Shown here: positions 2,482 through 63,972 of the stretch, piece after piece
How the letters are laid out: every line of letters begins with the position of its first letter
Numbering within the stretch: the first letter of the stretch is position 1
Assembly (NCBI GenBank): GCA_020283715.1
Contig: JAIQCW010000314.1
Coordinates: 1-64,000 of the forward strand
Length of the DNA stretch: 64,000 nt
Reading direction: 5' to 3'
Source: Cytauxzoon felis
Taxonomy: Eukaryota; Apicomplexa; Aconoidasida; Piroplasmida; Theileriidae
Program-made: the position numbers and the translations under genes
Notes under the pieces: generated by a model
Databases searched by the model: none
What the model saw: only the letters and a program-made list of their open reading frames with translations
Told to the model about the DNA's origin: nothing

Positions 2482-2770
2482 TTCCAGCACCTGAGGTCCA
2501 ATCCACTCCACTCGATGTCCAATCCATCTCTCTTGGTCTTGCAGACAGCTCTTCCACCGAGGTCCAACCCAACTCTCCTTCTACTCGGCGTGGTGTCCTC
2601 TCCATTTATCTAACCTCGACTCCCATGGATCGTCTCGGATTCATCGCCACGATCTCTGGGAGTGACTCTACTCTTTAGAGATAGGTAATTGGAAGAGCTG
2701 ACGGCAGGACGACCTCAGGTGGAAGAGCTGTCTGCAAGACCAAGAGAGATGGATTGGACCTCAAGTTGAC
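2482..2770. repeat. Modular hairpin-repeat block 1 (intergenic)
   Basis: Contains gtcttgcagac (2537), a cggcgtgg core, the GAC/GTC stem-loop at 2618-2634, gccacgatctctgggagtg, ctctttagag, and the inverse copy agagctgtctgcaagac near the right end. The block therefore reads as a long imperfect inverted repeat. Confidence 0.9.
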
Positions 2771-3114
2771 TAGAGATACATAGATCTTGGCCTGCAGTTG
2801 TAAGGTGATGAATGATGATTTTAGACATAGGCATATATAATAAATATTATAATATATAATAAAAAACTGCATTAGAAAATTTAAAACTGATTTAGTTTCT
2901 TTATTAAAATATTTTACACTATGGGATTTATATGTTAGTTAATCCTTTAATCTCTTGATAGTTAGTGAATATAGTTAGATGGAATGTAGAATATCAATTA
3001 CTTTGATCAAAATCATAAGCATCATTTTAATATATGGGGGATTTTAACCCAATAATTATTAGATTATTGACATCCTCACAGACGTTGTGTTTCTATCAAC
3101 CTTTACCTCTTCAA
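2771..3114. other. AT-rich intergenic spacer
   Basis: Short interrupted frames only; no feature recognised between repeat block 1 and the stop codon of the FAINT gene ending at 3115. Confidence 0.6.
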
Positions 3115-7262: not shown

Positions 7263-7354
7263 TTCACATATAATTATACATTACATCTGGTCGTGGGTCC
7301 ACTACACATACACATTATACTGATGTCGATCGATATTATTTATTATGACTAAAT

Positions 7355-8899
7355 ATGAAATACAATGATGAAGAAGAATATAAAATCAATAGAATTTCTA
7401 TAATTATACACATTATACTAATTATCGCAACTTTACTTTCTGGTACGTTCATGATAGTTGTTTGTAGTCTCCTGAGGTATCAATTAGCTTCTTGAGAACC
7501 CTGGAAGTCTATCACTTTCTTCTTTTAACTACTGATCTTCATGTTTCTATCCTATTAGGTATACTCCTCGGTATGTATTATATGCGTCCCTCAATAAGTG
7601 TCAAGATATCGGATGATCAAAATGAAGTTGTGAATAATGTCTGGAATTTGAAGTATAATAGTCAATCAAACCAGATTATAACTGGTGGAAGGTTTACAAA
7701 TTCATTTACAATTTATAACAACTCTATATTTCCAATCAAATTTAAGCCAGATGAGATTAAAATTTATCATTACCCTATAGGAACACAACTATCATGTATA
7801 TTTCTATACTCAAGTACGCTATATATAGATCTACATTATATATATACCTAGATGATAGACATTTTATCGGTGATAGTGAGATAAACAATATAAATCAATT
7901 ATATGATTCAATAAATCATCAATCGGAAAATAACTTTCTATCAATGAAGGATCTTAATGTAAGTTAATATAACCTCAAACAGTTTATGAGTGAGTTGTTT
8001 ATACTCCACCTTGTTTTCCCACTACCGTAGTGTATAACCTGATGTCTTTCCACTAGGCGTGGTGCCTATTCTATTTACTTCTCCTTCCAGCTCCCGTAGA
8101 TCGCTTCCAGGTTCCACTTGAGGTCATGTACTGTCTTCCACTTCTTCATTTTTACCTCTTAAATTTGAGGGAAATCCTGAATTTCTGGGGAAACTACTGA
8201 CAATATCTCAATCATTAATGAACTTATTTCTGATATAAATATCTCATTGAAAAGGAATTTGATGATTGTATTTAATTTTATAATCCTCACTTTAATCCAA
8301 TTTATATTCATTGAGATATCCCTTCAAACATAGATTCCATCACTTTAGTCATATCTCGTCGAGATTAGATTTTTAACCTAAGTGGAATACCCGAAGCTGA
8401 TCTCAGGGAAGCGAAGGGGGAAGTAAATAAAGGAGCCGTCTGCAAGACGAAGGAAAGGACCTATGGTAGACGTGAGTGGAAAACATGTTGAAGGTCTAAA
8501 ATATAATGATGATTTAACATTTTGATTTCATATTAACTTGTATAGTTGATGGTAGATTCATGTAAAGGTGGTATGATGAGTGCATTTTCATATGATATGA
8601 ATTGGAACGTTGGTTTTTCATTACCATTGAATGAAATTTGGCGTGTTTATAATATGTATAATGATTGTATTAGATATAAAAAATTATTATTTTCTATAAA
8701 AATGGAAGGGAATTATACAAACTATTGGTTTTTTAGTGGTCTTTTACCAAATTCTTATGAACTTATTATACCTATGGAATGTTATGTTGACAATGAATTG
8801 AATAATCATTTCAGAAATTATGTACCACCATCACCATTACCAAATAATCCAACGTTGTTTCATAATCTCAAAAATGATCCATCACTCTTTCAAAACTAA
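7355..8899 (+). CDS. Membrane-anchored conserved protein, LEA14/NDR1-like layout (four exons)
   Basis: Exons: 7355-7442, 7559-7795, 7852-7958, 8546-8899; 261 residues, all junctions in phase. A short acidic N-terminus is followed by one membrane segment split by intron 1 (IIIHIILIIATLLSG/ILLGMYY, about residues 15-37). The rest is a beta-rich ectodomain; ISVKISDDQN...FTNSFTIYNNSIFPIKFKPDEIKIY resembles the start of LEA14/NDR1-type domains, which occur in apicomplexan membrane proteins. The C-terminus is Pro/Asn-rich (PPSPLPNNP). Intron 3 (7959-8545) is filled with modular repeats and one 240-bp element. Function unknown. Placement of intron 2 is inferred from the need to skip an in-frame stop. 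Confidence 0.65.
8015..8150. repeat. Modular repeat block 3a (intron)
   Basis: Contains ccactaggcgtgg (8051), the AGC/GCT stem-loop (agctcccgtagatcgct) and a ccacttgaggt linker. Located in intron 3 of the gene at 7355-8899. Confidence 0.9.
8150..8380 (+). repeat. 240-bp dispersed element, copy 2 (intron)
   Basis: Collinear with copies at 11757 and 25266: tttctggggaaact, gaaaaggaatttgatgat, tattcattgagatatcc, atctcgtcgagatta. Flanked on both sides by modular repeats within the intron. Confidence 0.9.
8380..8475. repeat. Modular repeat block 3b (intron)
   Basis: Reverse modules: agctgatctcagggaagcg, agccgtctgcaagacgaagg, ending just before the exon at 8546. Confidence 0.85.
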
Positions 8900-9014
8900 C
8901 GAGCATCAAACTATAGTGAATTAGGGAATGATCGTATTAAATCAAACGTATACAATGTTTATACATAAGATCACAAAGTCATAATTCACACTATATTGCA
9001 GCTTCTCATTGTCT

Positions 9015-10374: not shown

Positions 10375-12273
10375 ATGGATAGGATGCGTGGAAATGTTGC
10401 AGGTAATACAAGTAGCAGGAATGGTATGGATCGTGTTTCTGGTCGTCAAGGATATCGACATGATATGATGGAGAGTCGCCGCGGAAGTGGTTACAGTCCT
10501 AATAGATATCATAATAGAGATTATGAAAATTATGGTAGATATGATAGATATGATTATAATAGGTATGGTGGTGGGTATAATCAAGGTTCACCGGGTAGAT
10601 ATCATGGTAGGGATTACAATGATCCTGGATATAATGGTAGATATGATAATGGTTATGGTAGAGGTGGTGATTATCAAGATGGTTATTATGATAATATGCA
10701 GGATAGAAGATATAATATGCCAACTAGAGAACGTCCAATGCCATATGATCGTCGTGGTGCCCCTAATAGTCGTATGGATTATCAAAGATATGATAATGGG
10801 CGTTATAATAATCGTCAAGTAAATCCACCACATTATCAAAGTACTAGACATCCAGGTGGTAATGATGTATGGGATCATGATGTTAAATTAGGACGTCCAT
10901 CCGGTGGAATATCTAGTGGACCAATAAGAAGAAGTTATCATCAGAATTCTGTTAATGGTAATTTTACTAAAATTTTTATTGGTAATATGAGTGGTAAAGC
11001 TACAGAAGAGGAATTAACAAATGCATTCTCAATGTATGGACCAATTAATAAAGTTGATTTTAGGCGTAAATTTGCATTCGTTGATTATACCAGACATAGA
11101 GATGCTGAAGCCGCTATTAAAGATATGAATGGTAAAATGTGTTGGGGATCCAGAATTAAAGTACAACCACATGTTGAACAAACTAGGAGACCACAATTAA
11201 CCAGAGAACCTAAACTCGAATGCCAAATTACTGTTACCAATCTTGATCAATCAATCAGTTGGCAAGACCTTAAAGATTTTGCCAGGCAAGCCGGTGATGT
11301 TAATTATGCCTCTATTATTATTAGAGGTAATAAAAGATATGGGCTCGTTGAATTTACACACGAAGATACACTCAAAAATGCACAAGATAAACTCGCCGGT
11401 AAAAAAATCGCCAATAATAAACTCGATGTTATACTCTGCCCAGTCTCTGAATACCTCAAACAAATCGATCCAAATGGATCTAATCAGTACGTTTAAACAT
11501 TTTATTACCACTCATCACTTCACAGATACGATCTCGATACCTACGAAGCCGATGCCAATGGAGATGAATGCGAAAAGGTATGAATGAAATAATCTCGTCA
11601 ACAATTACACTCCATATGAGGTCCAATCCGACTCTTTTCCACTCGCCGATCCTCTCGAGGTCAATCCAACTCTCTTCGTCTTGCAGACAGCTCTTCTATT
11701 TACTTCCCCTTCCAGCTCCCGTAGATCGCTTCCAGGTTCCACTTGAGGTCCAATCACTATCATCATTTTTACTTGCAAAATTTGAATGAATTCCTTCATT
11801 TCTGGGGAAACTCATGACAATAGCTCAATCATCATTGAATGAAATTCAGATTTTAATACTTCATTGAACAGGAATTTGATGATTGTATTTAGTTATCTGG
11901 CTTCTATTGGATTCCCAGTTATATCCATTGAGATATCCTCTCAAACATAGAATCCGTCACTTTATACGTATCTCGTCGAGATTAGTAATAAACCTCAAGT
12001 GGAATACCCGTAGCTGATCTCAGGGAAGCGAAGGGGGAACTAAATAAAAGAGCTCCATGCAATGGAATAGATGGACCTCGAGTGGAGAGCTCCATGCAAT
12101 GTGAAAGAACGTGACAGTCATGTAACCTCGAATGGAGATGAAATAGAGTGTAATATACATCATGTGTGTATTATTCCTCCTTTAGTTGTCTATATAATTT
12201 CAATTAATATTTGATTAAATAGGATGCAAAGGTATATCAAGATTCAAATTTGGATTCAGTTGATTATGACTGA
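10375..12273 (+). CDS. SRSF1-like splicing factor with two RRMs (three exons)
   Basis: Exons: 10375-11486, 11526-11577, 12223-12273; 404 residues. Residues 1-165 are low complexity, rich in Arg/Tyr/Gly/Asp. RRM1 lies at about 199-267 (RNP2 KIFIGNM; RNP1-like KFAFVDY). A second RRM lies at about 283-355 and carries SWQDLKD, the invariant heptapeptide of the pseudo-RRM of SRSF1-type SR proteins, so an SR-like role in pre-mRNA splicing in the nucleus is likely. The Arg-rich tract is N-terminal and RS repeats are lacking; the C-terminus is acidic (DLDTYEADANGDECEK). The start is the first ATG after an in-frame AT-rich leader. Intron 2 (11578-12222) contains modular repeats plus a 240-bp element. 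Confidence 0.85.
11613..11756. repeat. Modular repeat block 5a (SR-protein intron 2)
   Basis: Modules: ccactcgccg, gtcttgcagac, and the AGC/GCT stem-loop at 11714-11730 followed by a ccacttgaggtcc linker. Confidence 0.9.
11757..11985 (+). repeat. 240-bp dispersed element, copy 3 (SR-protein intron 2)
   Basis: Same order of landmarks as copies 2 and 4: tttctggggaaact, attgaacaggaatttgatgat, ccattgagatatcc, tatctcgtcgagatta. Confidence 0.9.
11990..12140. repeat. Modular repeat block 5b (SR-protein intron 2)
   Basis: Reverse modules including agctgatctcagggaagcg and two agctccatgcaatg cores, separated by linkers. Confidence 0.9.
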
Positions 12274-13003: not shown

Positions 13004-14505
13004 TTAATCCTCAGTTAAAGGTCTAGAACATTGTCCAGTTAATTTACGTTGTAATGAACCAATAGCACGGCTAATACCAACAGTTTCATCAAATTGCTAT
13101 AAATTAATAGATGAAAATATTATTAAATACAAACCTTCAATTTAGCAGCACCACTATTTATACTTGCACGGGTCCAATTTATCTTATTCTGTAAACCCAT
13201 AACCCAAGATGGTATACTACCAACACCCAATTCCCTACATAATGTATCCGCAAAATTCAAGCAATTCCTATAAATAATTTATATAGACAATTAAGTGCTC
13301 ATCCATCTCTATTCCACTCGAGGTCCAATCATACTATTCTTCCACTAGGCGTGGTGCCTCTTCTATTTACTTCCCCCTCCGCTTCCCTGAGATCAGCTGC
13401 GGGTAGTCCACTTGAGGTTACATCCAACACATCCTTAGCACCATCTTCCATCATTCCCATGATGGATGATCCATCACTAACTTCAACTTCACCACGATCT
13501 CCGGGAGTGGCTATACCGTATACGGGGAGGTAATTAGAAGAGCTGTCTGCAAGACGACCTCAGGTGGAACGCCGAGTGGAAGAAGAGTTGACTGGACCTC
13601 GAGTGGAGGAGCTGACGGCAGGATATGCATGGTTTAAATTATATAATGGCATACCTTTTGAGTATATCATAGCTATTTCCTGGCCATTGTTTTTTGAGTT
13701 TATCGATGATTTCGGTAACTTGTCTGGGTGTGAATTTGGTTTTGCCTAGATCGATAGTTTTGCGATAGACGTGCGATGAATGGAATCTTGGGAATGATTG
13801 CATAACTCCGGTACCACCTAATGATGTATATCCGAAATTATATTCATATCCATAGATTTCTACACCTGCATGATAGGCACCAGCACCAAATGTACCAGCG
13901 ACTACATTAACTACTTTATTTACAGATTCTAGATCATATATATTAAGATATACATGTCCATATTCTGTTGGTATTCTATCTAATGGTGTAAATCTACCAT
14001 GTCTTGTACTATTATTACGTATTAATCTTAGATTAGATCTATGATTAATATTTGTTAGATTATCACTTAAACCTCTACGTATAACAATATTATCACTTTT
14101 TAAATCACTTATTAATGATGCATTTTGTTTTTTAACATCTGTATTTGATGTATTATTATCTGGTTCATATAATTTCCCAGCAGCATTTAATGCTCTATGA
14201 TTATTAATGGATGCATTAAGTAGGGCTTGACTAATAATTGTATTATTATTATTATTATTATTATATACATCACGTGATGATTTTATATCATTACTATATA
14301 CATCACGTGATGATTTTATATCATTACTATATAAATCACGTGCTGATTTTGTATCGTTATTACTATATAAATCACGTGCTGATTCTATTACACCACCTTT
14401 AGTATCGTGGTAAACATCTCTAGACTCTGGTAGTATTGTATTAATATTCTCATTAGTAGATGTAATACTAATACTTCTACTAGTCAATTTTAAATCATCT
14501 ACCAT
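13004..14505 (-). CDS. PPPDE/DeSI-family cysteine peptidase (three exons)
   Basis: Exons: 14505-13655, 13267-13135, 13096-13004; 358 residues. The PPPDE (DUF862/DeSI) fold starts near residue 182: [11 protein letters not shown], then [16 protein letters not shown] with the catalytic His, then after the intron [13 protein letters not shown] with the catalytic Cys. Family members remove ubiquitin or SUMO; which modifier is used here cannot be told. The N-terminal ~180 residues are Asn/Ser-rich and hold about four tandem units of the type [18 protein letters not shown] (DNA 14266-14400). Intron 1 (13268-13654) separates the catalytic residues and is filled with modular repeats. Confidence 0.85.
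13308..13622. repeat. Modular repeat block 6 (PPPDE intron 1)
   Basis: Contains ccactaggcgtgg, the GCT/AGC stem-loop, the 75-nt [10 protein letters not shown] box in reverse (about 13430-13480), ccgtatacgg (13526), gtctgcaagac and ctgacggcag. Confidence 0.9.
14266..14430 (-). repeat. Coding tandem repeat in PPPDE gene
   Basis: Four to five degenerate units of 33-36 bp (catcacgtgatgattttatatc type), in frame, encoding the RDLYSND/RDVYSND repeats, next to a poly-Asn (att)n run. Confidence 0.85.
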
Positions 14506-15774: not shown

Positions 15775-16035
15775 CACCTGAGGTCTTCCACTAGGCGTGG
15801 TGCCTTCTTCCAATTACCTATTCTAAAGAGTATAGCCACTCCCGGAGATCGTGGCGAAGTGAAGGTAGTGATGGATCATCCATCATAGGAATGATGGAAG
15901 ATGGTTCTAAGGATGTGTTGGATGTAACCTCAAGTGGACTACCTGGAAGCGATCTACGGGAGCTGGAAGGGGAGCTAATTAGAAGAGCTGACGGCAGGAC
16001 GAAGAAAGGTGGATTGGGCTTCGAGTGGGATCTGA
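15775..16035. repeat. Modular repeat block 7b (intergenic)
   Basis: Contains ccactaggcgtgg, ctctaaag-type hairpin, gccactcccggagatcgtggc, one plus-oriented copy of the 75-nt box with the ccatcat...atgatgg hairpin (about 15870-15940), gcgatctacgggagc and agctgacggcagg. Confidence 0.9.
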
Positions 16036-22074: not shown

Positions 22075-22420
22075 TTCCACTCGAGGTTACATCACCACTC
22101 TTCGTCTTACAGACAGATCTACACCTGAGGTCCATCTTTTCCATTGCATGGAGCTTCTCTATTTACTTCCCCCTCCGCTTCCCTGAGATCAGCTACGGGT
22201 AATCCACTTCCACTTGAGGTTACGTCCTCACTATCTTCTACCAAACCTTCACCTCCTTCACTTCCGCCACGATCTCCGGGAGTGGCTCCACTCTTTAGAG
22301 ATAGGTAAATAGAAGAGGCGCCACGCCTAGTGGAAGGAGAGTTGGATTGGACTTCAGGTGGAACGGCGAGTGGAAGACAATTGGACTTCAGGCATAGAGC
22401 TGAAGTGGAACTGAATATAG
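22075..22420. repeat. Modular repeat block 12 (intergenic)
   Basis: Contains ccattgcatgg (22141), the GCT/AGC stem-loop at 22177-22193, gccacgatctccgggagtggc, ctctttagag and the reverse core gccacgcctagtgg. Block between the 350-bp element region and the CELF-like gene 3' end. Confidence 0.9.
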
Positions 22421-24908: not shown

Positions 24909-27900
24909 ATGGATAATAATCCCATATTCAATGATGATGAGATTTATAATAAATCTAATATATTTTATAATAGTAAAGGTTCAAACAACTTCAATATACT
25001 CAAATTCGGATCAGCACAAATCGGTATATTCGGATACAATTTTAAACGACCCACTGAATTCCACTATCTACCCAAAAATACACAACTAGAAGAACAAATC
25101 ATAGATTTCATTACCGAAATATCAAATGAATGTATGTTTATTACCATAAATACTTGTATACTACACTCGAGGTCTTTCCTGCCGTCAGCTCTTTTAATTA
25201 TTTCCCCCTCCGCTTCCTTGAGATCAGCTACGGGTCCAACTTGAGGTCTCCACTTGAGGTCCAATCACTGTCTTCCACTACTTCATTTTTACCTCGAAAA
25301 CTTGAAGGAATTTCTTCATTTCTGGGGAAACTCATGAAGATTACTCAATGATTATTGGATGGACGTCTGATGTTAATATTTCATTGAAAAGGAATTTGAT
25401 GATTGTATTTAATATTGTCATCCTCACTTCATTCCAATTTATTTCCATTGAGATGTCCCAACAAACGTAGATCCCGTCACTTTAGACGTATCTCGTAGAG
25501 ATTAGGAATTAACCTCAGGTGGAACCCGTAGCTGATCTCAGGGAAGCGAAGGGGGAAGTAAATAGAGAAGGCCGTCTGCAAGACAAGATAAGACCTCAGG
25601 TGCAAAGCTCCATGCAATGGATAAGATTGGTCTCGAATAAATGACATAATTCAATTTAATTTATTACTTCTAGGTACATTTGTTGGTAATAATGGTCGTA
25701 CTAAGCGTCCGAAGAGTATGGTGTTTTGTAATACACCAAGTTTAAATGAAATGTCAAGATTTCCATTAAAATATATGCATAAAGCACTTGAAGATTTATA
25801 TGCACTTAATCTAAACGAGTGGAGTATAAGACGAATAGTCCTCCTTTCCATATTTATCATCGTACTCACAATCATACTATGGCCACTCACTACACTCACA
25901 TTGGATAGAAGATGTATGTCATTCTATACACATAACCACTCTGAACCCATGTACCATGATTTTACAACCTTGACTTTTCTACCTTCACTTCTACTCGACT
26001 CTACCGAATGCCCATCAATATCTATTCCTCCTACAGATAGATCTCCACTTGAGGTTACATCTCCTTTCCCACTCGCCGTGGAGGCTTCCTCCAATTACCT
26101 ATCTCTAAAGAGTAGAGCCACTCCCAGAGATCGTGGCGAATCTAGTTATTGGACCTCAAGTGGAACCCGTAGCTGATCTCAGGGAAGCGGAGGGGGAAAT
26201 ATATAGAGAGGCTCCATGCAATGGAAAAGATGGACATATGGTGGAGCTATTGTGTGTGGTTATATGTATAATATTAAATTAATTATAGGTATATGGTATG
26301 GTAATGATTATTTGTATATTTGTTTTCATATGTTAATGGGTTTGAGTATATTATTATTTTTATTACCGATTTTATCATTACATATAAAATTTAGACATTT
26401 AACAGAATTATTTTCTTATATCACCTTAGGTTCTGTATGTTTTTATATAATTTTTATTAAAATATCAGATTGGCTTTATTTGGGGATGTTGGCATATCAT
26501 TAATAGCTTTGATATACATGAATCATGTTCTAAAAATACTTTAATCGAACTCATCACTTCTAGAAATACAATATCAACCTTAGATTATATCTATGGATTC
26601 ATACCCATCATCGCACTCGATTCATTCATACCTTCCAGGTATTTTAATCCACATCCAATACAATATGTACTCTACAACTAGTACAATCCACTACTCTATC
26701 ATTTCCACATTTCCTTGTCCTGCAGACGGCTCCTCCACCGAGGTCCAATCCTACTCTGTTCCACTAGGCGTGGTGCCTCTTCCAATTACCTATCCCTGAA
26801 GGGTAATGCCACTCCCGGAGATCGTGGCAAAATATCCGAGACGATCTATGGGAGTCGAGGTGAGGTAAATAGATAGGCCACCACGGCGAGTGGAAGAGTA
26901 GTTGTATTAGACCTCCAGTGTAATGTAATTAATTTTAGATTGATATTTATGATTATATTGACATATAATTTTACAGATCATCTAAGACCTGGATATTTCA
27001 TCTACAATTTGTTGTATTATATTCTATAAGTACATTGGTGGTGGGTATAATAAATCCATCACGTGTACCATGGATATATGTGTATGTTTGTAAATTCTAA
27101 TATAATAATAATTATAGGTTATTTCATATATTAGCTTATATATTTGTAACATTTTTATTATATTTTGGTAATTATAATTCAGAAGTACAGATACGTATAT
27201 CATTTTATAATTGGTTAACAACATCTGAAAGGATAGCTCGTATGGAATATGATATTAAGAATAATTATAATAATACATATAAAATAGCTACACCAGCTGA
27301 ACATATATTAGATGGTATTATAAATTGTACAAGTATAATTGAAAAATTATATTATCTTATTGATGATAATTATCCTGAAATATCTTATTCATTATCTAAA
27401 TTATATACTATGATAAGAAATTGTTTATTACAAATTACAAATAATGATGATTTATATACTGTACCACATTTAGAATTATATAATGATTTAGGTAAAGAAA
27501 TGGATATCATCGATGAATTCATACCACATCCTAGAAATGATGTAATAAATTCATACAATCTCTATAAAGATAATCTTTATAATAAAAATCAATCGAATAT
27601 CTCAAATCCACCTGAAGTCCAATCCAACTCTCTTCCACTCGCCGTTCCACCTGAGGTTACAACCTCGCGTTCTCCTGCAGAGAGCTCTTCCAATTACCTA
27701 TCTCTAATGAGTAAAGCCACTCCCAGAGATCGTGGCGGTGAAGGTAGTGATGAAGGTATTGATGGATCATCCATCATGGGAATGATGGAAGATGGTGCTA
27801 AGGATGTGTTGGATGTAACCTCAAGTGGATTACCCGCAGCTGATCTCAGGGAAGCGAAGGGAAAAGTAAATAGAGAAGCTGTCTGCAAGACGACCTCGGG

Positions 27901-29249: not shown

Positions 29250-29347
29250 CTCGAGGTTATCTCCACCGTAGGTCGTCTTGCAGACAGCTTCCTCTATTTA
29301 TTTCCCCCTCAAACCCCCGTAGATCGTTTTCGGGTTCCACCTGAGGT
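29250..29347. repeat. Modular repeat block 18a (intergenic)
   Basis: Contains gtcttgcagac and the AAAC/GTTT form of the covarying stem-loop at 29311-29329. Confidence 0.9.
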
Positions 29348-32879: not shown

Positions 32880-33365
32880 TTCCACTCGAGGTCCAATCCA
32901 CCTCTCCTTCGTCCTGCCGTCAGCACTTCACTGAGGCTACAGCCAGTGTTGCTCTTGCAGAGAGCTCTTCCATTTACTTCCCCTTCCAGCTCCCGTAGAT
33001 CGCTTCCAGGTTCCACTCGAGGTCCAATCACTATCTTCTACTCTTCCACTAGGCGTGGCGCCTTCTCTATTTACTTCCCCCTCAAACTCCCGTAGATTGT
33101 TCTCGGGTTTTCACTTGAGGTTACATCCAATACATCCTTAGCACCATCTTCCATCATTCCCATGATGGATGATCCATCACAACCTTCATCACTACCTTCA
33201 CCTTTGCCACGATCTCTGGGAGTGGCTTTACTCTTTAGAGATAGGTAATTGGAAGAGGCTCCACGCCTAGTGGAACAGTAGAAGATAGTGATTGGACCTC
33301 GGTGGAAGAGCTGTCTGCAAGACGAAGAAAGGTGGAGAATGAGTTGATTAGACCTCAGGTGGAAT
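32880..33365. repeat. Modular repeat block 19 (intergenic)
   Basis: A large block including cctgccgtcag, gctcttgcagagagc (32953), AGC/GCT and AAC/GTT stem-loops (the latter at 33085-33101), the 75-nt box in reverse (about 33127-33195), gccacgatctctgggagtggc, ctctttagag and ccacgcctagtgg. Confidence 0.92.
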
Positions 33366-39100: not shown

Positions 39101-40778
39101 ATTTACATCCAATTGAGGTTACATTATTACCTTCTCCAAGTTTCGTCGTCTTGCAGACAGCTTCTCTATTTAGTTGTCCCTCCGCTTCCCTGAGATCAGG
39201 TACGGGATTATCGCCACGATCTCCGGGAGTGGCTTTACTCTTTAGAGATAGGTAATTGGAAGAGGCTCCACGCCTAGTGGAAGGAGAATTGGATTGGACC
39301 TCAGGTGGTGAGGCTCCACGCCGAGTGGAATCAGTGATTGTAACCTCAGGTGGAGAGTCATCCACATCACGGCCTATGGTAGAATCATCATCGAATGAGA
39401 TTGGTGGATAGACTTTATATTGAGTTCCATCTACAATACTGACGATATTACGTCTAGTTGACATCTTCTGGACATTGCTACCATCTACATCATTACCACT
39501 TCCCCCACAATTATATGAAAATGGTGTAATATCATTCAACTTATCTAATAATAATTCACAATTCTCCTCAATGATATCATTAACGTTTAGATAATCACTC
39601 GTTAGGAGATCTAACCATACCTGTAGAAATAATTGACAGTCTTTGGTCCCTATACCATCGAAAAGGAATTTGAATATGAATCGAGCATTGTATTCATCAA
39701 GAGTAATCAAATTTAAACCAGACATTTTTATCATGTTTAATGACTCTGTGACATTTAGGGGGTAATTTAATATCATATAGGAGATGTACAAATTACAATT
39801 TGTTAATTTCGATAATTTAACTATATATTTAAAACAACGAATCCCACCCAACAATAAAACATTTTTAAAATTAGCGCTGTTACATATTAATGTCAACCAA
39901 TTTAATAACTTCCCACATATAATTTCATTACGTACACAAATATATGACCCATACTTAACATAATCCAATGCAAATTCCAACCACTTGGATAATATCAAAC
40001 TGTAAATGTTCCGTGATGGCATATTAAACTCTTCAGCATCTGATAAAATGACATCCTCCTTACTGTACAACAATAAATAATCCATAAATGTACAATACTG
40101 ATCCGATAATGTATTTATATACACCTCACGCACCTTTAGAGGGAACAATACATTAAAATCAAATGCTATAGAAGGTAAAGTGTATAGTACATATAAGACA
40201 ATCTGTCTCGGTACCAAATTCAACAATGAAATAGGCACATCACGTACATTATTAAATAAATCCACATCATCTGTACCAAAAATCGATAGAATTATAGCAT
40301 TATAACATAACAATCCAGGAATAGTTTCATTTTCATCATCAATATCCACAAAATTAAGTGATGATTTACATAAAGATATCAAAATTGATATCACCCTAGC
40401 ATAATACTCCTTCAATGATATCTTATCATCCAATTTATCAACAATAGTAGATAAACCCACTCTCAGATTGTCAATCATCAACAATAACAACTCCTTCATC
40501 ACCAATTTCTTGTCATTGTCATTCAATTTCGACAACTTCTCAATCAATACAGATGGTAATTTTATATTCAAATACCTCACTACAGGGTCAGATTCCACAA
40601 AAATTTCGTCATTAGTCGATAACAAATCCCTAATATCAACCTCCAATAATACCGATAATATATGTAAACACGTCCTTAAACAATTGACCTCGTAAGATAA
40701 CGCGTTCTTCAACTCCTCAATATCCTCATCATCTGACCTCTTCGTAACCAATGTTATCAACCTGCGATATAATTTCAT
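36198..40778 (-). CDS. Large helical protein with two in-frame repeat insertions
   Basis: A single exon of 1526 residues. Residues 1-465 are Leu/Ile-rich, amphipathic and helical (for example LKNALSYEVNCLRTCLHILSVLL), consistent with an alpha-solenoid; 665-1080 and 1255-1526 continue in the same style. Residues about 471-663 and 1081-1251 are Pro/Ser/Gly/Arg-rich and encoded entirely by modular repeats; they interrupt the helical protein without breaking the frame. No catalytic motif, signal peptide or membrane segment was recognised, so the family is not assigned; a scaffold or transport-type solenoid is only a guess. The start is the first Met of the frame, close to a short AT-rich spacer shared with the divergent RNR-like gene. 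Confidence 0.7.
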   Translation of the reverse strand: MKLYRRLITLVTKRSDDEDIEELKNALSYEVNCLRTCLHILSVLLEVDIRDLLSTNDEIFVESDPVVRYLNIKLPSVLIEKLSKLNDNDKKLVMKELLLLMIDNLRVGLSTIVDKLDDKISLKEYYARVISILISLCKSSLNFVDIDDENETIPGLLCYNAIILSIFGTDDVDLFNNVRDVPISLLNLVPRQIVLYVLYTLPSIAFDFNVLFPLKVREVYINTLSDQYCTFMDYLLLYSKEDVILSDAEEFNMPSRNIYSLILSKWLEFALDYVKYGSYICVRNEIICGKLLNWLTLICNSANFKNVLLLGGIRCFKYIVKLSKLTNCNLYISYMILNYPLNVTESLNMIKMSGLNLITLDEYNARFIFKFLFDGIGTKDCQLFLQVWLDLLTSDYLNVNDIIEENCELLLDKLNDITPFSYNCGGSGNDVDGSNVQKMSTRRNIVSIVDGTQYKVYPPISFDDDSTIGRDVDDSPPEVTITDSTRRGASPPEVQSNSPSTRRGASSNYLSLKSKATPGDRGDNPVPDLREAEGQLNREAVCKTTKLGEGNNVTSIGCKLPETIYGSRGGLKRRRRLQDNEMTSSVLPESDLRELEGEVNKKATTASGMEDGVSDGMRNSTGPQVEPVADLREAEGEVNEESHHGEWTTSGGRKFDWTSNVEPPNHKQLPTSIKSSRKKRAASGISIENIIGFYGDKKPHNPDIILLARDLMIVIVRLLDVYKCRLKLNNKIQDGLNLIKSLNTHDWLLFNNIHKHKIEYSLFLIYLLYKGDLCNPFLSYVGDIMGLKNLDVNIKFILLLLNNDIYINNISIFYKLYNLLYNVKINLNNNNNLWYDSYIDYINLKRSLKVNGVMGQIKNIIIDDIELLLLKLNDRIKLIPIDYNESLIYIKYITILLDINKEYNKDIDINISIIMAILTKYNLFNNLPHILNDMIIYKSYKLLKYSDYNIKLQLLNDINKNLYNESIYEFINYIIIEFIEDFHDNFQWTLDNYNLFLQLLIIFNKILYIPKLLYLILTNNIVIIKNLIITINSIDKKCIKLMTLRSKINYKLILLLLMINEPYNHKPNYKSIKDKNIIHEVQSMSIPPEVTNSVPTAMEASPSEVQSTSVPLAESSPNYLSLKSKATPGDRGGGEDVDGMKSSTGPRVEPVADLREVKGEVNREGLHGEWKKTTSSGTASGKPESDLRELEGDVNREATTASGMKCSTGPQVEPESDLRELEGEVNRKGTTPSGKTSTGEADGRTTSSIEPPNNDKVVDLDMNLMTYFHGKECIDISSIETPIRVDRVYNDSYIIKPMSSGTPMRCSDLLSSMDMNSSLLLSDMNRSYDYGNELIDMDYNRFIEIFNDDIIDNDDEYELYPRFILFISKKYIDNMRLMNDDNNTPNILSFITSRIRLLMTSLCGDFKIGIDIDDSIIKGILTILDMIIISCYKQLFNIDINDLDIGIEYKLSLECIKILFNNFINLPNTKLLLITEYYLIYSSININMNYNIIKRRFITDNNLIQSNALEFIYEYFINIKKNLYRL
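37025..37535. repeat. Modular repeat block 22, inside the 1526-residue ORF
   Basis: Contains cctgccgtcag, ccactaggcgtgg, the AAGT/ACTT stem-loop (37116-37134), three ccactcgccgtgg cores, AGC/GCT and GCT-type loops, gccacgatctccgggagtggc, ctctttagag and ctctgcaagag. Read on the minus strand it yields runs such as TGPRVEPVADLREVKGEV. Confidence 0.9.
38790..39365. repeat. Modular repeat block 23, inside the 1526-residue ORF
   Basis: About 570 bp, the longest block. Contains ccactcgccgtgg twice, GCT/AGC, AGC-type and GAC/GTC stem-loops, gtcttgcagac twice, gccacgatctccgggagtggc, ctctttagag, ccacgcctagtgg. No stop in the minus-strand frame. Confidence 0.9.
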
Positions 40779-47878: not shown

Positions 47879-49227
47879 TTAAACGAAGCTTTTGACTTCG
47901 AAGAATGAGCTGATGTAATAGATTTGGAAACAACAGAGTCCAATTACAATAATCATTTGCACAACTGACCAAAATATAATCCTCGAATTCATCTTATCAA
48001 TAATCTTAGAATATAAAAACTCCCTCGTACTATACGCCTCCATTCTATTCATTATCGAACGAGTCTGTAATAATAATAAACGCCACATATAAAAAACACC
48101 ACAATAATTATCACTATAATACATTCCTTGCCCCACTGCAGATGGCTCTCCACCTGAGGTCCAATCCTACCGTTGCCACTCGCCGTGGTGGCTCTTCTAT
48201 TTACCTCACCTCGACTCCCATGGATCGTCTCGGTTCTTCGCCACGATCTCCGGGAGTGGCATTACCGTTTACGGGGAGGTAATTGGAAGAGGCCTCCACG
48301 GCGAGTGGAACAGTGGTTGTAACATCAGGTGGGACGACTGGTATTGATAGATAGGGGTTTATCTGTGGTTATGTTGATTAAACATACAGTATCGAGTAAT
48401 CTATCGGCGAATTTGAGTACATCTTTGAGATCATCTACAGTTGACAATGTTGCTAATCCCTTATTACTATGTGATTCAATTCTTGTCGCAATAACAGCTG
48501 TTACTGGTGTACTATCCAAATTTGTTATACACAATGAATAATAACCCGCTTCCAGAAGCTATAAATATATCCACATAAATGTATAATATCATACTACAAC
48601 ATTCTTCCTATTGCAGAGAACTCTTACTGAGGCCAAATTCTAGTCTCTTTCCCACTCGCCGTGGTGGCTCTTCTATTTACCTTCCCCTCCGCTTCCCTGA
48701 GATCAGCTACGGGTAGTCCACTTGAGGTCCAATCACTAACTTCGCCCACGATCTCCGGGAGTGGCTCTACTCTTTAGAGATGGGTAAATAAAAGAGCTGT
48801 CTGCAAGACGACCTCAGGTGGAATGGCGAGTGGAACTGAGGGTGTAACCTCAGGTGAGAGCTGCCTGCAATAGGAATAGACGTGGGAATGTCTAACACTA
48901 TGAATATGAATACAAACCTCATAACTGACGTTTGAAAAATCTATATCTTCAATTGGCTTTTCGTCGGATGGTATTGTAGTATTAGTGCTGACTTTGTAGA
49001 GCTTGACATCGACGAGGGCTTCCGGTGGTATAATCGATACAGAACTTAAGAATTATATAATGAATAAAAAATAATAGGAAATACCCTAGTAGTTTATCGC
49101 CAGAGAACGCGTTTGAAGTGAAACAACGTGATTCTTTAGATGATAGCGTTATATGTACAGCGTTTATATATAAAATGAAATTCAAAATTATACAGAATAT
49201 TATATTATTATTAATGATGGAACTCAT
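47879..49227 (-). CDS. p24/TMED (emp24/gp25L) cargo receptor (four exons)
   Basis: Exons: 49227-49085, 49044-48918, 48558-48388, 48064-47879; 208 residues, typical of p24. Signal peptide MSSIINNNIIFCIILNFILYINA; GOLD domain from about 24 (SKESRCFTS with the first conserved Cys; GYYSLCITN with the second); coiled-coil stretch (DDLKDVLKFADRLLD); one C-terminal membrane segment (FWSVVQMIIVIGLCCFQIYYI) preceded by a family-typical (N/S)RIIFWS; and a short cytosolic tail FFEVKSFV with the Phe pair used for COPII/COPI binding. It cycles between ER and Golgi in early secretory vesicles. Introns 2 and 3 are both enlarged by repeat blocks. Confidence 0.9.
48138..48340. repeat. Modular repeat block 26 (p24 intron 3)
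   Basis: Contains ccactcgccgtgg, the GAC/GTC stem-loop (gactcccatggatcgtc), gccacgatctccgggagtggc and ccgtttacgg (48265), another paired variant of the ctctaaagag module, then ccacggcgagtgg. Confidence 0.92.
48615..48880. repeat. Modular repeat block 27 (p24 intron 2)
   Basis: ccactcgccgtgg, GCT/AGC stem-loop, ccacgatctccgggagtgg, ctctttagag, gtctgcaagac. Confidence 0.9.
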
Positions 49228-51078: not shown

Positions 51079-52140
51079 ATGAAAGAGAACAATGAAGATG
51101 TAGATATACAGAATAATATTAAAACATTATTAATTGAGCGTAAAACGTTAAGAATCTCAATTAAAAGGTTGAAAAATCAATTAGATAATGGTACAGTCGC
51201 GACAACCTCTTTAATTATTACATTTTAGATGGCCTTTCAAATGGATTATTGTCCAGTAGAAGTATAACTGATACTCTAACTAATAATAAAAATAAATCAA
51301 AGGTAAATTTATAAGCATATAACATATTCCACTCGGCGTGGTGGCTCTTCCATTTACTTCCCCTCGGATTCCCGTAGATCATCCTCGGCATAATACCTAC
51401 CCGGAAGAACATAAATATGTCAACCCCTAAGAACAGAGAATTCTACTTGGAACAACAGGAATTCTACCCGGAGTAACAGACCTCAAGTGGAACCCGCAGC
51501 TGATCTCAGGGAAGCGAAGGGGTAGGTAATTAAAAGAGCTGACGGCAGGACGACCTCAGGTGGAGATCTTCATGCAATGGAAAAGATGGACCTCAGGTCG
51601 AATGGCGAGTGTAATAAAGATGAATTGATATGACGGATCAAATAACTGCAAACGATGTTATTAATCTATTAATATATATAGGAGGTTGAAGTTGAAGTAG
51701 AGGATGATGATCTCGAGAAGCGTCCTCGTGTATCGGATGATGTTGAGACTAAGGATCGTCACAAGCGTTTATTGAGGACTGGTTTATTTAATCATTTAAA
51801 GAGGGCAATGGAAGCTTTAACGAGTGAAAAATCGGATGAAAATGTGTGTTTGAGATTCATTTAATCGTCACTAAATTCTCTTTTAGATTATAAAACATAT
51901 TGAAAAGGATAAATTGATCGACGATAAATTGGAGGAAAAGAGGAAGATACAATTGGATAATATAACAAAAGACAATGAGGTTTGTATTTTCTCCTTCAAA
52001 ATTTCAACACTTTAGGAACAATTGAAAAATAATGAGGAAAGATTAATTGAAGTTAATAATTTACTCTCCGAACAATACACTCTTCTTATGGTATGTTTTA
52101 TCCCCATCTTTAGATGATCTCTGTGATCTGGAGGAGGTAA
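51079..52140 (+). CDS. Pinin/SDK/MemA-like coiled-coil protein (six exons)
   Basis: Exons: 51079-51190, 51229-51302, 51682-51843, 51887-51979, 52016-52090, 52114-52140; 180 residues. An N-terminal short coiled coil is followed by a basic segment (LEKRPRVSD) and KDRHKRLLRTGLFNHLKRAMEALTSEK, which resembles the R.kRmfg.LlgtLqkf..E core of pinin-type domains, then Lys/Glu-rich helices. Pinin is an exon-junction/splicing-associated nuclear protein. The match is moderate and the protein is short. The last exon is taken from the edge of a modular repeat, which supplies the stop codon (gaggaggtaaatag). Intron 2 carries another block. Confidence 0.6.
51330..51622. repeat. Modular repeat block 29 (pinin-like intron 2)
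   Basis: ccactcggcgtgg, a variant stem with loop tcccgtagatc, the gtcaacccctaagaacag module related to 17460-17500, agctgatctcagggaagc and ctgacggcagg. Confidence 0.88.
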
Positions 52141-54405: not shown

Positions 54406-54434
54406 GAAAAATGGGAGGATGAAAAACAAATGAA

Positions 54435-57960: not shown

Positions 57961-58036
57961 GCTATTGATGATAAAATTATAGCGCAAGGCATGTGGAAGT
58001 GTAATAAGGAATTGATTTTCGTGTTGAATAATGAGT

Positions 58037-59733: not shown

Positions 59734-59830
59734 TTTATTTTGAATCTCAAATATAATACAATTGTCTCCTAATAATACTAACCATTATATTATTAATCTT
59801 TATCAACCACATTATTAAATTTCCTATCGA

Positions 59831-59903
59831 GCCTCTTTAGCTCAGTTGGTAGAGCGCCAGACTTTTAATCTGGTGGTCAGGGGTTCGAGCCCCCTAGGAG
59901 GCT
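59831..59903 (+). tRNA. trnK-UUU: tRNA-Lys(UUU)
   Basis: A 73-nt cloverleaf without intron: acceptor gcctctt/aggaggc with one G-U pair, D arm gctcagttggtagagc, anticodon arm ccaga-cttttaa-tctgg (anticodon TTT), variable loop tggtc, T arm agggg-ttcgagc-cccct. Internal A box (tagctcagttggt) and B box (ggttcgagccc) for RNA polymerase III are intact. A short T run (tttttt) beginning about 9 nt downstream serves as terminator. The 97-bp gap to LplA and 160-bp gap to the RCC1-like gene are otherwise empty. Confidence 0.97.
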
Positions 59904-60064
59904 GACTAATTTTTTTAAACATAGACAACGTATATATTTATTTTAACTATTATTAACAATTACAACTGAATTATTGAATGAACAATTTATATATTTGACA
60001 TTTTTACTAAAACTGTCATCTCCGCCTACTCTAATCTCCTCTGGCCTTGTTATGCATCTGCCTT

Positions 60065-63000
60065 CTATTGTGTAAATGATTCATTTACCGATATAAACAT
60101 ACTATTTATATTCAATTGCTTTAAATTATTATTTCCCCAGCCGTAAATACGGCCATTATACAATAGTGAGATGCAATGGGTATTACCGCACGATAATGAT
60201 TTTATTCTATCGGCCAGTTTGACGAATTGGATCGTATCCATCTTTATACTACCACATTGACCACTTTTATTATCTCCAGATGATAATATATAACCATTGT
60301 TACTGAATTATATATATTATTCGAATTTATTTGAACTCGGGATATTGATTCCACATAATGTAGCCATGTCTCCAACAGGAGTTCACAAGAGGTTATAACC
60401 TTATGTTCGTCTTGCAGACGGCCCCCTGTACTTACTTCCCCGTATACGGCAATGCCACTCCCGGAGATCGTGATGGAACTGTAGAGGATGTAACCTCAAG
60501 TGGAATACCTGGAAGCGATCTACGGGAGCTGGAAGGGGAAGTAAATAGAAGAGCTGACGGCAGGACTAATTCAAGTGGAAAGATCAGCCTTATACTACGT
60601 TCGTGTGATACTAACTTGGTATTGATGTGTAAGATTGTGAAGTTGCTTCCTGTGACTAGATTCGGTTGGTAGATATTGATGATGTTGTTATAATGTTGTG
60701 GTAAATATTTATTGACATTTATGGGGTTGTATTGCAAGTGTCTATATCAATATTATAATTGAATATGATATACTAACCGTTCCTTTTGATTGTAATAAAT
60801 TGTTTGTCTTTTGGAGGGTACTAATGATTAATGAACATCTTTTTGATGATAATTATCAACATACCATAATTTTTGACACAATTCTTATATGTATCATCTA
60901 ATAATAATGAACGACCCCTAGTATCTCCCAAAAATAACTGCGATGATGAATCATCACCAAATCTATAATTATGGGGCATTTTATTGTAAGATTACGGGGA
61001 AATTTACGTATAGATATTATTTTTATCATCTATACAGATGGTATGATTGCTTCCACAAGAGACATTTACAATTTTATTATGGGGATTATTAAATTTTACC
61101 TGAAATGGAAATATGGGGTCTAAAATTAATTAATACTTTTGTCATTGGTATATTATCATGATCTTTTCCCTTATTATTTACATTGTATACAAGGTATGTA
61201 GAATCAGTAGTTGTCCTCATAGGTTTCTTACCACATTGACCATAGAAGTTATCACCAATACAATCTATAATGTATATATTGTATCCAATTAGATGAGATT
61301 ATTCATACAGAGAGCTCTCCATCTGAGATCCAATCACCGTTGGTCTTGCAGACAGCTCTTCTAATTACCTATCTCTAAAGAGTAGAGCCACTCCCGGAGA
61401 TCGTGACTGTGAAGAGGTATTGATTGACCTCAAGTGGATTACCCGCAGCTGATCTCAGGGAAGCGAAGGGATAACTAAATAGAGAAGCTGTCTACAAGAC
61501 AACCTCAGGTCGAACACTTAGTTGTATATAAGGTGAAGCATAGATATAAATACATGAAGATAAATTAAATATATAATTCCACTAAGCCATACATAATGAT
61601 ACCAATCTCTATTTACTTTATCCTTATCATAAGGTGGAAATCCATAATCCTGTTGATAATCAATCCATCTTTTACCGTGTTCAATGATGAAATTATCAAA
61701 TTATTATGAAATTTAATTCTAAGAATTTAACCTGTATATTTAATATACCATTAATCTTAGATTTAATTGCAGGCTTATCATTTTCATTAAGACCAGTCGA
61801 TGCATCTACATCCAAATCCGAATGGTATTCCCACTTCTTACCTCTACCATACCAATGATTTGTAGCAGTACTACCAGTAACACCAGTTTGATAATACAAG
61901 AGTAGAGGTGTTTCAAGTTTAGGAGTACCATCTTTCACTTCATAAAATACCCATACTTTCTTATTTGCAGCAATAGTTATAGTGCTATTAGAATCCAATT
62001 CCTGAATACCCCTGATTGGAATTCCGTAATGTGTAATCCTATTTATCATCATAGCACCACTATAAGAGTGACGGTAACCTATGAAACCGGTAATTGTGTT
62101 ATTAGAATCTACAGTAATATTGTCACCCTGAGGGGTTGCTTTATATTGACTAGTTTCCACAAGCTTAATTTCGTATTTATTTTTGAGTTCCTCGAGATGA
62201 GTTCTAAGTGAACTAGCAGCACTCATATCATCTGGATCTACACTGGAAAGAGTACCCTCTAATGTCCATGTTTGTCCTCTCTTGTAATAATCCCACGTTG
62301 ATTCGCTTTGTCTCTTAACACAAATAATTAATGGAAATTCATGCTCAGTATCATTATTTTGGCTGTAATATACAAAAACTGCTGTAACGCCTGTAGTTTC
62401 GGGTATTTCCTTCAATGGAATATCATTATGCTTAACTGAACCTAATTTGAATTGAGTAGTTCCATTACCAATTTTATGATCATATCTGATATAGTCTCTT
62501 GGTACTTTCGTATCATCACCGACCTCTTTAGTAACAGTAATCACTCTCTTGCTAGGATCATTATTATCACCCGTTACATATTTAATAGTATTAGAGATGC
62601 CCGTCTGCTTGGGAGCATAATCCAATTTTAAAATGTACTGTGGTTTAGGATAACCTGGATTACTAGCAACTGCAGTGTTAATTATACCGAGTTGATCTTT
62701 AAGATCAGTACCAATTGTAGTACCATTCTCAGCCGGTTTTATATTAGTAAAATTAGTTGTAACATTTTCCCATGTAAATCTACCATCACTCTCCTTCTTC
62801 CGCTTATACCATATATTGTTATCAGAAGTTTCAGTATTATCCTTTGTATGATCCTTTGATAGGCATATTAACAGAGGTTTCTCGCGATTTCCACCAGCTT
62901 CTTGTGATGTAAAATATACAAATACACCTCCATTATCTCCGGGTGTAAAACTACTAAGCTCATTTGTAAGTTCTTTTATCACATGACCGTATATTGTTAT

Positions 63001-63972
63001 CCGATTTATCTTTTGATTTTCTGGAATAGGGTGTTTAAAACCTTTATACGTTCGATCACTGCCACTTTCTTCAACTGCTGTAACACTAATTGTATCATTA
63101 CCAGGACGTCCTTTGTATGCAGCATTCTCCCCAAGCTTAACTTCAAATTTCCCTTTAACATCATCAAGTTTACTTTGAAGTGTTTGAAGACCAGCACCTG
63201 GACTTTCTGGATTTACACCTTGAAGTTCAGTTTCTACCTCCCATGAATTCCCTCTCTTATAATATTTCCAAGGCTGTTGGCCTGTACTAACACAGACAAT
63301 TAGAGGAAATTCATGATCGTCATCTCCAGTTTGGCGATAATATACATAGACTGCTGTAACACCTGTATTCCCTTGTACTCCACTCAATACCTGATCGTTA
63401 TGAGTAACTGAATCTAAATTGAATGTACCTCCACCACTACGTGCATGCTTATATCTAACATAATTAGTTGGTACTATATTTCCATCACCATCCTTCTTTT
63501 CAACTTTAATTTGATTGGTTCCAGATCCATATAAAGCACCCTTATCAGCTTGGTCACTGGTAGGTGCTACACTTGTATCAATTTCAATTCCTCCACCACC
63601 TTTTTTCATTTCATTCATCTGATCCCATGTCCATAATATTAATTATGTATCCTCTTTCCACTCTTCGTGGTTGTCTCATTTATTTCCCCCTCCAGCTCCC
63701 ATGGATCGCTTCCGAGTTAAAAGTAAAACTTACATAATTTCCCGTCTTCTGTAATAAATGCAGCATGAGAATCACCAACACTCATCTTTTTTATTCTAAT
63801 TGACGAGAAAAATGAACGCTCAGGAAACTCTAGAGTTTCAACATTGTTAACCTTTCCCTCTTCAATAACCTTCGACACATCACGTATAACACATACTGAA
63901 CGCATTTCAGATTAATAATTATCCATCATTCTCACCTTTACCATCAGATTTCAGCAAATAAACCTCATTCAT
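60065..63972 (-). CDS. RCC1-like beta-propeller protein (eight exons, one giant intron)
   Basis: Exons: 63972-63936, 63895-63734, 61264-61137, 61099-61008, 60962-60865, 60820-60778, 60741-60616, 60302-60065; 307 residues, every junction in phase. RCC1 repeats are evident: VGDSHAAFITEDGKLYCIGDNFYGQCG across the giant intron, VSCGSNHTICIDDKNNIYTFGDDSSSQL, and SLSCGNTHCISLLYNGRIYGWGNNN. RCC1-type propellers act as guanine exchange factors or protein scaffolds; the specific partner is unknown. With about five visible blades the protein is short, so more 5' exons may lie beyond the window, although the ATG at 63972 is a plausible start. Intron 2 (61265-63733, 2469 bp) encloses another open reading frame; intron 7 holds a repeat block. 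Confidence 0.8.
60405..60580. repeat. Modular repeat block 36 (RCC1-like intron 7)
   Basis: gtcttgcagac, ccgtatacgg, ccactcccggagatcgtg, gcgatctacgggagc and ctgacggcagg. Confidence 0.9.
61315..61515. repeat. Modular repeat block 37 (RCC1-like intron 2, left)
   Basis: gtcttgcagac, ctctaaagag, gccactcccggagatcgtg, agctgatctcagggaagc, agctgtctacaagac. It lies on one side of the nested ORF. Confidence 0.9.
61696..63618 (-). pseudogene. Displaced FAINT-loop array nested in RCC1-like intron
   Basis: An open frame of 640 codons from the first Met; the frame is open a few codons further upstream and there reads LILWTWDQM, the end of the last N-terminal membrane segment of the multi-pass family. It continues KKGGGGIEIDTS, equivalent to GCGGVEIDIS in member 1, then five to six FAINT-like units (for example VTAVYVYYRQTGDDDHEF...KYYKRGNSW). 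It stops before any C-terminal membrane domain. There is no signal peptide and no upstream family box. So it is the loop cassette of a multi-pass gene, cut out near the membrane boundary and placed, on the same strand, within the RCC1-like intron between two modular repeat blocks. Whether it is expressed is unknown. Confidence 0.75.
63655..63718. repeat. Modular repeat block 38 (RCC1-like intron 2, right)
   Basis: ccactcttcgtgg (a decayed ccactcgccgtgg) and a stem-loop agctcccatggatcgct; abuts the 5' edge of the displaced loop array. Confidence 0.88.

Follow-up and report, generated by a model that had tools for sequence, protein, structure and literature searches.

A 64,000-nucleotide stretch of the Cytauxzoon felis genome (contig JAIQCW010000314.1, positions 1 to 64,000 of the forward strand; "the window") is dotted with a modular repeat whose central hairpin, H2, keeps an 11-nt loop while the two arms of its stem change together. 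These repeats probably (we would say with a probability of about 70%) belong to one family of short, palindromic, non-autonomous DNA elements that inhabits the C. felis nuclear genome and works like the Rickettsia palindromic elements. A first-pass annotation of the window had pointed out the hairpin and had stated that no named element of such design was known in piroplasms. We likewise found none described for Cytauxzoon or Theileria in the literature that we searched, in which coverage of piroplasms is partly thin and subscription literature is sparse.

Genome-wide counts refer to an incomplete assembly of 8,623,106 bases in 181 contigs; the C. felis genome paper describes 361 contigs and 9.1 Mb (PMC3748084). 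Unless stated otherwise, densities and fractions refer to a contiguous sample of 245,865 bp (the window and loci L003–L021). Another 20 short loci (L022–L041) were centered on places that resemble cf76, a gene for a vaccine-candidate antigen, and are enriched for genic copies. We defined a core as an exact or one-mismatch loop with linker context, which gave 326 exact and 38 one-mismatch copies with context, plus 4 exact copies without it. This definition replaced a looser search (up to two loop mismatches), whose 1370 matches were mostly background.

Exact matches to the loop, TCCCNNNGATC, number 67 in the window and 7485 in the assembly (3754 forward and 3731 reverse), where the same pattern read backwards has 43. 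Of the 7485 loops, 6924 (92.5%) belong to seven complementary stem types; the other 561 were not sorted by stem. The types are CAC/GTG (gamma, 2670 copies), GCT/AGC (alpha, 2440), AGC/GCT (beta, 1172), GAT/ATC (222), GAC/GTC (delta, 167), AAC/GTT (161), and AGT/ACT (92), and the backwards control gave zero for each of them. The window includes these H2 hairpins:

11714..11730, + strand: beta hairpin, AGC-TCCCGTAGATC-GCT
22177..22193, + strand: alpha hairpin, GCT-TCCCTGAGATC-AGC
15837..15853, + strand: gamma hairpin, CAC-TCCCGGAGATC-GTG, with a small hairpin (H3) before it
2618..2634, + strand: delta hairpin, GAC-TCCCATGGATC-GTC
37116..37134, + strand: AAGT-loop-ACTT hairpin, of the AGT/ACT type
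29311..29329, + strand: AAAC-loop-GTTT hairpin, of the AAC/GTT type, with the loop one base off (CCCCGTAGATC)
33085..33101, + strand: AAC-loop-GTT hairpin, with the loop one base off (TCCCGTAGATT)
51367..51383, + strand: GAT-TCCCGTAGATC-ATC hairpin

The first-pass annotation had cited six of these hairpins, and all six are present exactly where it placed them; the commonest type, gamma, was missing from its list. The loop that it described as constant is so in four of the six and is one base off in the other two (29311–29329, which begins CCCC, and 33085–33101, which ends in GATT).

We sorted the stems of the 326 exact-loop copies with linker context, which come from the window and the loci. 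One of eight complementary 3-bp stems was present in 306 of them. The remaining 20 comprised seven chimeras of two types, eight point mutants with a broken pair, four point mutants that keep a G.T pair, and one other. No compensated double change within a stem type was seen among these 326 copies, which implies that the covariation belongs to about eight subfamilies.

Between the types, the covariation is strong. We compared ten representatives, which cover every stem type (with two variants for some), at four pairs, or 40 cells. Overall, 87.5% of the cells were paired, versus 56.8% in shuffles, and the covariation score was 1.011, versus 0.304 in shuffles (0 of 500 as high) and at most 0.211 if the partner was slid. 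The percentage paired, the number of cells changed on both sides, and the covariation score were each above all 500 shuffles. For two measures based on counts of pairs or of pair types, 123 and 175 of the 500 shuffles did as well as the real stems. All five unpaired cells lie at the outermost pair. Re-dealing the arms of the eight types gave full pairing in 3 of 20,000 trials. Also, among copies with a fixed flank (C[CT]TC-NNNN-loop-NNNN-TCGG), which have six different left-arm sequences, 24 of 24 were paired over at least 3 bp. The shuffles, the re-dealt arms, and the fixed-flank copies all bear out the claim that the two arms change together, well beyond chance, around a loop that stays constant. 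These paired changes lie between the types; within a type, the deviations are single-arm decay or chimeras. The annotation had expected a few ancient subfamilies without significant covariation if it was wrong: we do find few subfamilies, yet the covariation between them is significant. In short, the pairing is genuine, but it is a property of about eight subfamilies. Separately, the genome-wide counts show that a stem is sometimes combined with central loop letters that are typical of another type (as in GATTCCCTGAGATCATC and AGTTCCCTGAGATCACT), which suggests either loop exchange or independent stem changes.

Paired arms could also arise through quasi-palindrome correction, in which an intramolecular template switch rewrites one arm from the other. 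This is the main rival explanation, and it requires no selection for folding; the loop would simply be the part that is never copied. The 24 fixed-flank copies, paired despite their six left arms, do look like the replacement of whole stems. However, the stems are only 3–5 bp long, which is short for this mechanism. Furthermore, correction has not reached the seven chimeras or the eight point mutants with a broken pair, and several stem types are only one base pair apart, so that copying of a block is unnecessary to explain them. We consider template switching possible but doubtful here; it has been discussed elsewhere as a way in which perfect inverted repeats arise and arms evolve in concert (PMC6649704).

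Covariation recurs at two other hairpins of the repeat. For the H1 hairpin around GTGGN, the arms were GCC/GGC in 57 and GGC/GCC in 36 of 115 matches; the other 22 are non-Watson-Crick, including five with GGC/GGC. For H3, the small hairpin before the CAC/GTG type, the arms were CTC/GAG (82), CCG/CGG (12), or CCC/GGG (9) in 103 of 113 fitted units. (Ten units read otherwise, and 22 of 135 units were outside the fitted pattern.) Covariation does not recur at the TGC-loop register of H1, to which we return below.

A pattern parse shows that the hairpins are parts of larger composites with the order A> H1> linker> H2> A> (spacer hairpin), followed by mirrored units. The A modules resemble terminal inverted repeats (TCCACYYGAGGT), the H1 cassette is of several kinds, and there are usually two units head to head: this is the arrangement of 93 of the 120 pairs of neighboring cores within 350 bp, 55 of which have CAC/GTG facing GCT/AGC. 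A core is present in 147 of the 219 module clusters; the median span is 197 bp, and the total is 28,718 of 245,865 bp (11.7%). The H1 cassettes at a composite's two ends are independent of each other (the same type in 16 of 76 cases, which is not above the shuffled mean of 14.4), and we therefore rejected matching cassettes as a case of long-range covariation. Examples from the window are:

13314..13622, + strand: typical composite outside any open reading frame (ORF), A> c> linker> alpha> A> spacer hairpin> <gamma <linker <a <A <A <b
48652..48872, + strand: composite alpha> A> <gamma <a <A
48150..48332, + strand: composite delta> <gamma
11612..12135, + strand: long form, beta> and <alpha with loops 299 bp apart and the shared AT-rich interior
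8050..8447, + strand: long form, beta> ... <alpha with loops 307 bp apart

In the long form, alpha and beta units lie about 300 bp apart and enclose some 240 bp of common, AT-rich sequence, which we recognized by eye in 9 of 12 candidate pairs. A third such site is at about 25195–25620 of the window. The long form may be an older or parental form of the element. The copy at 11612–12135 has no match in Rfam.

This layout might suggest a miniature inverted-repeat transposable element (MITE), moved by the transposase of a terminal-inverted-repeat (TIR) DNA transposon that is undetected or extinct, with the A modules as its terminal inverted repeats. An A> module is outermost on the left in 82 of 147 clusters and an A< module is outermost on the right in 75 of 147, and the shared interior of the long form would fit as well. 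But the number and order of the modules at the ends vary, and there is no signal of a target-site duplication: for 47 A>...A< clusters, whose boundaries are approximate, the mean best direct repeat was 1.06, versus 1.30 for re-dealt flanks. Also, a survey of 64 apicomplexan genomes reports no class II transposons, and no transposable elements in C. felis (PMC9141347). We view a MITE as unlikely.

Where two units lie head to head, the facing H2 loops of the oppositely oriented units are complementary to each other. The whole composite may therefore fold into a single long hairpin instead, which the first-pass annotation missed. RNA folding gave one long hairpin through both loops for six of seven 141-nt pieces and for both of the longer stretches; the seventh piece stops before the second loop. 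A composite cannot form the local hairpins and the long one at the same time. The z-scores ranged from -4.5 to +1.3 and lay between -1.8 and -4.5 for seven of the nine stretches (for example, -4.5 for 13330–13580, a single long hairpin, and -1.84 for 48640–48830). With these folds and its median span, the element is palindromic and hairpin-forming, as are the ~150-bp elements of Rickettsia.

Elements are concentrated behind genes. A core lies within 600 bp of the ORF in 42 of 59 downstream flanks and in 20 of 57 upstream flanks. The orientation downstream of genes is random (38:37), which argues against a strand-specific element of the mRNA and for a DNA element; we set aside an mRNA-level element for this reason. 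The first-pass annotation had proposed selection on a folded RNA or single-stranded DNA, or templated copying of hairpins. The pairing that it relied on is genuine, while a strand-specific role in mRNA is disfavored.

The enrichment behind stop codons and the negative z-scores are nevertheless what would be expected of a structured RNA or regulatory element that is selected for its fold, in the mRNA or as a small RNA (such as a 3'-end or stability element). Besides the random orientation, this idea is contradicted by the copies within coding sequence and by two of the seven 141-nt pieces, which fold with z above 0. Also, only a tRNA in the window matched at the Rfam 15 gathering score, and a lax Rfam search of 11600–13640 gave just one chance-level match, at 12725–12810, away from the elements. 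These Rfam results led us to set aside a known RNA family, and we consider a structured RNA or regulatory element of this sort quite improbable. (The tRNA is a tRNA-Lys (TTT) at 59830–59904, which is also the sole ARAGORN match in the window.)

Many copies are nevertheless within genes. Open stretches of 250 codons or more make up 38.6% of the bases of the contiguous sample and contain 51 of its 240 copies with a listed stem; coding sequence is avoided, yet it is far from free of the element. (Some of the other 189 copies may sit in shorter exons or in introns.) Across the window and L003–L041, 103 of 320 copies with a listed stem are in such open stretches, and 102 of these lie on one strand, with frames that are specific to the stem type. 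Because a listed stem was required for a copy to be scored as lying in an ORF, the absence of stem variation among ORF copies is built in, and we draw nothing from it. For composites in ORFs of at least 200 codons, the loop-to-loop distance is 1 modulo 3 in 16 of 16 cases, while the 64 composites outside ORFs split 30:19:15. Among those 64, 23 keep the coding frame open and 33 have no open frame on either strand; the sense frame is open in 25 and the antisense frame in 13. These data imply that the copies outside ORFs are not kept for coding and that the copies inside ORFs have been filtered for frame. Overall, the element is found both between genes and in frame within unrelated protein-coding genes, as is known for the Rickettsia elements.

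The ratio of nonsynonymous to synonymous polymorphism (pN/pS) for alpha is 0.65 in ORFs and 0.84 outside, and for gamma it is 1.46 in ORFs and 1.66 outside. The similarity of these values implies that the peptide is under at most weak constraint and that the DNA pattern is common to both kinds of copies. We therefore rejected purifying selection on the peptide. This comparison also bears on the idea that the repeat is a protein-coding module that spread for its peptide (as a surface decoy, or as a targeting or interaction tag), with the copies outside ORFs as debris. In its favor are the shared strand and type-specific frames of the open-frame copies, the presence of a copy in 16 of 57 long open stretches (the 16 were counted tile by tile and include one odd-strand copy, and the 57 were counted on joined contigs), and the element-derived residues in a seroreactive part of cf76 (about 83 of 225; see below). 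However, most copies of the contiguous sample (189 of 240) lie elsewhere than in long open stretches, and among the proteins that carry the element are RNA polymerase III and a vesicle adaptor, neither of them a surface protein. A module that spread for its peptide is very unlikely.

In the cases that we examined, a composite within an ORF adds about 80–140 residues. The inserts in the window's genes are:

27608..28071, + strand: in-frame insert in a cyclic-nucleotide phosphodiesterase ORF (27242–29221, +), preceding the catalytic domain (PF00233, E = 5.9e-66)
37047..37520, - strand: in-frame insert cluster in a 1526-residue ORF (36198–40778, -)
38824..39353, - strand: second in-frame insert cluster in the same ORF

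A search with the phosphodiesterase ORF matched the C. felis surface antigen cf76, and the best aligned stretch is the repeat-encoded peptide. Another example is the open stretch at L006:7447–9699, which encodes the middle of RPC1, the largest subunit of RNA polymerase III. Its insert (residues 338–476) provides about 135 extra residues and is 43% GC, versus 30% before it; at the corresponding site in human RPC1, four residues separate the aligned parts. The same open stretch ends in a repeat-like peptide, possibly due to a following intron or a second element. In AP-1 gamma adaptin (L028:289–2913), several inserts follow the trunk, and these are absent from the proteins of Theileria equi, Babesia sp. 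Xinjiang, and B. duncani. Several repeat inserts are also found in a 3670-codon open frame around G000:C164:36337–39651.

Support for the translation of such inserts comes from cf76. The gene is at C114:6540–8708 in our assembly, which agrees with the position published for C. felis (contig00195:6540–8711; PMC6310948), and the protein is identical over 723 residues to a published record. It carries the element in its reading frame at about residues 177–272 and 575–657. The second insert contributes 83 residues to the C-terminal fragment, which is 225 residues long and had the strongest reactivity with sera from survivors (PMC3748084), and two of the published primers for cf76 fragments fall within the element. 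Hence, for the serology of cytauxzoonosis, part of the reactive cf76 fragment and two primers belong to a family of thousands of copies. The gene reportedly consists of one exon, and the template for amplifying both cf76 and its fragments was cDNA of DNase-treated RNA (PMC3748084). The copies in ORFs are presumably translated: the cDNA supports this for cf76, and open frames suggest it for the other genes. Two public alleles of cf76 are identical from about residue 300; before that, they are distinguished by indels the size of modules and by substitutions, both in the first insert and immediately on either side of it. A tandem unit in the assembly (residues 636–657, L022) is 33 bp long, and we tentatively equate it with a tandem polymorphism of the same region that was given as 30 bp (PMC3748084). 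A search with the repeat region of cf76 found only the two cf76 records among 663 length-matched candidates, and unannotated genomes may still hold the element. We rejected an assembly artifact, as cf76 was amplified by others from eleven samples (PMC3748084) and both public alleles carry the inserts.

The gene inserts might instead be introns, as in introner-like elements, and be spliced out. Orientation-specific presence in genes, as we observed, is expected of introners too. But splicing would not require that all 16 of the composites in ORFs keep the frame, and there is no convincing GT..AG pair at the RPC1 insert, although frame-keeping GT/AG dinucleotide pairs are present. Also, cf76 was cloned from cDNA as a single exon with the element inside (PMC3748084). 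Introners are highly improbable, slightly more so than a module that spread for its peptide.

How would the elements spread? We propose that they would spread as DNA and be filtered afterwards, so that they persist where nothing breaks: in 3' flanks, or in tolerant loops of proteins and in the right frame. If the hairpin is part of a copying or inserting intermediate, then only copies that fold would be copied on, and the stems would stay complementary. The H1 cassettes and the A modules would be exchanged by recombination between copies. The Y1 transposase (PF01797) had no match in the assembly (the same family was matched in 5 of 14 control genomes). Among reverse transcriptases, the incomplete assembly has none other than telomerase: its one RVT_1 frame (C56) also carries Telomerase_RBD. 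These searches covered only the Y1 and reverse transcriptase families. We accordingly set aside a retroposon or a REP/RAYT system. Given that no such enzyme and no target-site duplication were found, our guess is that the most likely route is host repair, by templated insertion or ectopic gene conversion at breaks. Copying that is associated with repair and passes through a hairpin intermediate would select for pairing in each round.

Several observations weigh against a mobile hairpin element of this kind, or against parts of the argument for it. The terminal A modules would also fit a TIR transposon rather than host repair. We saw no empty-site pair or new insertion, and mobility is deduced from the dispersion of the copies and from the cf76 alleles. 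The two 141-nt pieces with z above 0 fold no better than shuffles do, and the z-scores are weaker with DNA folding energies. In the TGC-loop register, H1 is complementary over 4 nt in just 86 of 182 matches, mainly because a common module, CCTGCCGTCAGC, is unpaired in that register. Copies that are only upstream of a gene have an orientation of 17:10, which is too few to judge. The one-strand, one-frame result is partly due to ascertainment because a copy that breaks the frame would end the open stretch; given the 25:13 ratio of open sense to antisense frames, openness alone predicts about 2:1, not 102:1, and an extra bias is left over. Other piroplasms were compared by their proteins only. 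Finally, the inserts in RPC1, AP-1 gamma, and the phosphodiesterase are taken to be exonic from their open frames.

More broadly, and tentatively, it is a real possibility that self-spreading, exchangeable hairpin cassettes colonized a eukaryotic nucleus and are rewriting proteins in frame across the genome (perhaps a quarter of the long genes, including RNA polymerase III), with their peptide forming much of the immunodominant part of a vaccine candidate, the cf76 antigen of this cat parasite. If so, one repeat-encoded family of epitopes would be common to hundreds of parasite proteins. Insertion elements that are palindromic and code for protein have been described mainly in bacteria, and here there are thousands of copies in the nucleus of an apicomplexan. 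The clusters of the element make up 11.7% of the sampled sequence, in a genome for which a survey reported no transposable elements (PMC9141347). Several questions become testable: how repeats spread without an enzyme of their own, whether pairing is selected during copying or results from template switching, and how an essential protein can accommodate an insert of 100 residues.

Some other genes in the window deserve mention. Two ORFs carry FAINT domains (PF04385), which we take to be a domain of the Theileria lineage. Another three (42857–45463, 52264–54156, and 54435–56777) are large, resemble membrane proteins, and have no Pfam match; we presume that they are similar to the Tpr family of Theileria. 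By eye, the middle part of the ORF at 42857–45463 resembles the ORF at 61696–63618.

We compared the element with known systems. Apart from the tandem PARCEL repeats, we found no dispersed family of coding palindromes in a eukaryotic nucleus in the literature that we searched, in which subscription literature is sparse. Fungal mitochondria have palindromic GC clusters and also double-hairpin elements. The GC clusters, such as those of yeast, resemble the C. felis element in being mobile-like hairpins that merge and shuffle, are GC-richer than their surroundings, and have constrained stems (PMC4478555). In contrast, they are mostly intergenic and have putative target-site duplications, whereas the C. 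felis element is nuclear, is also in genes, and gives no duplication signal. PARCEL repeats are coding palindromes that have spread in bacteria and some eukaryotic microbes (PMC2996958); they are tandem 25-residue repeats associated with membrane proteins, while the C. felis element is dispersed, lies mostly outside long ORFs, and affects unrelated proteins. The mitochondrial coding palindromes of Nematomorpha are also hairpins within translated eukaryotic genes, and template switching is discussed as their possible cause (PMC6649704), but they are long, perfect, mostly species-specific, and located in conserved protein sequence, unlike a dispersed family of insertions. As MITEs do, the C. felis element appears to be non-autonomous, has a high copy number, and has ends that resemble terminal inverted repeats; unlike MITEs, it has no target-site duplication signal, no fixed ends, and no parent transposon that we could find.

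The closest parallel is with bacteria. In R. conorii there are several hundred copies of palindromic elements in all. A review gives 44 insertions into R. conorii genes (PMC10969869). The Rickettsia elements are about 150 bp long and encode peptides, being both intergenic and in frame in unrelated housekeeping genes (PMC10969869, PMC2996958). Wolbachia has palindromic repeats as well. The C. felis element is likewise short and palindromic, and it is found between genes and in frame in unrelated genes. It differs in residing in an apicomplexan nucleus, in its ~7500 copies of the loop, and in its interchangeable hairpin cassettes with several stem types and constant loops. The likeness would thus be one of mode of life, and we do not imply that the C. 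felis element is a member of the Rickettsia family or of the mitochondrial GC clusters.

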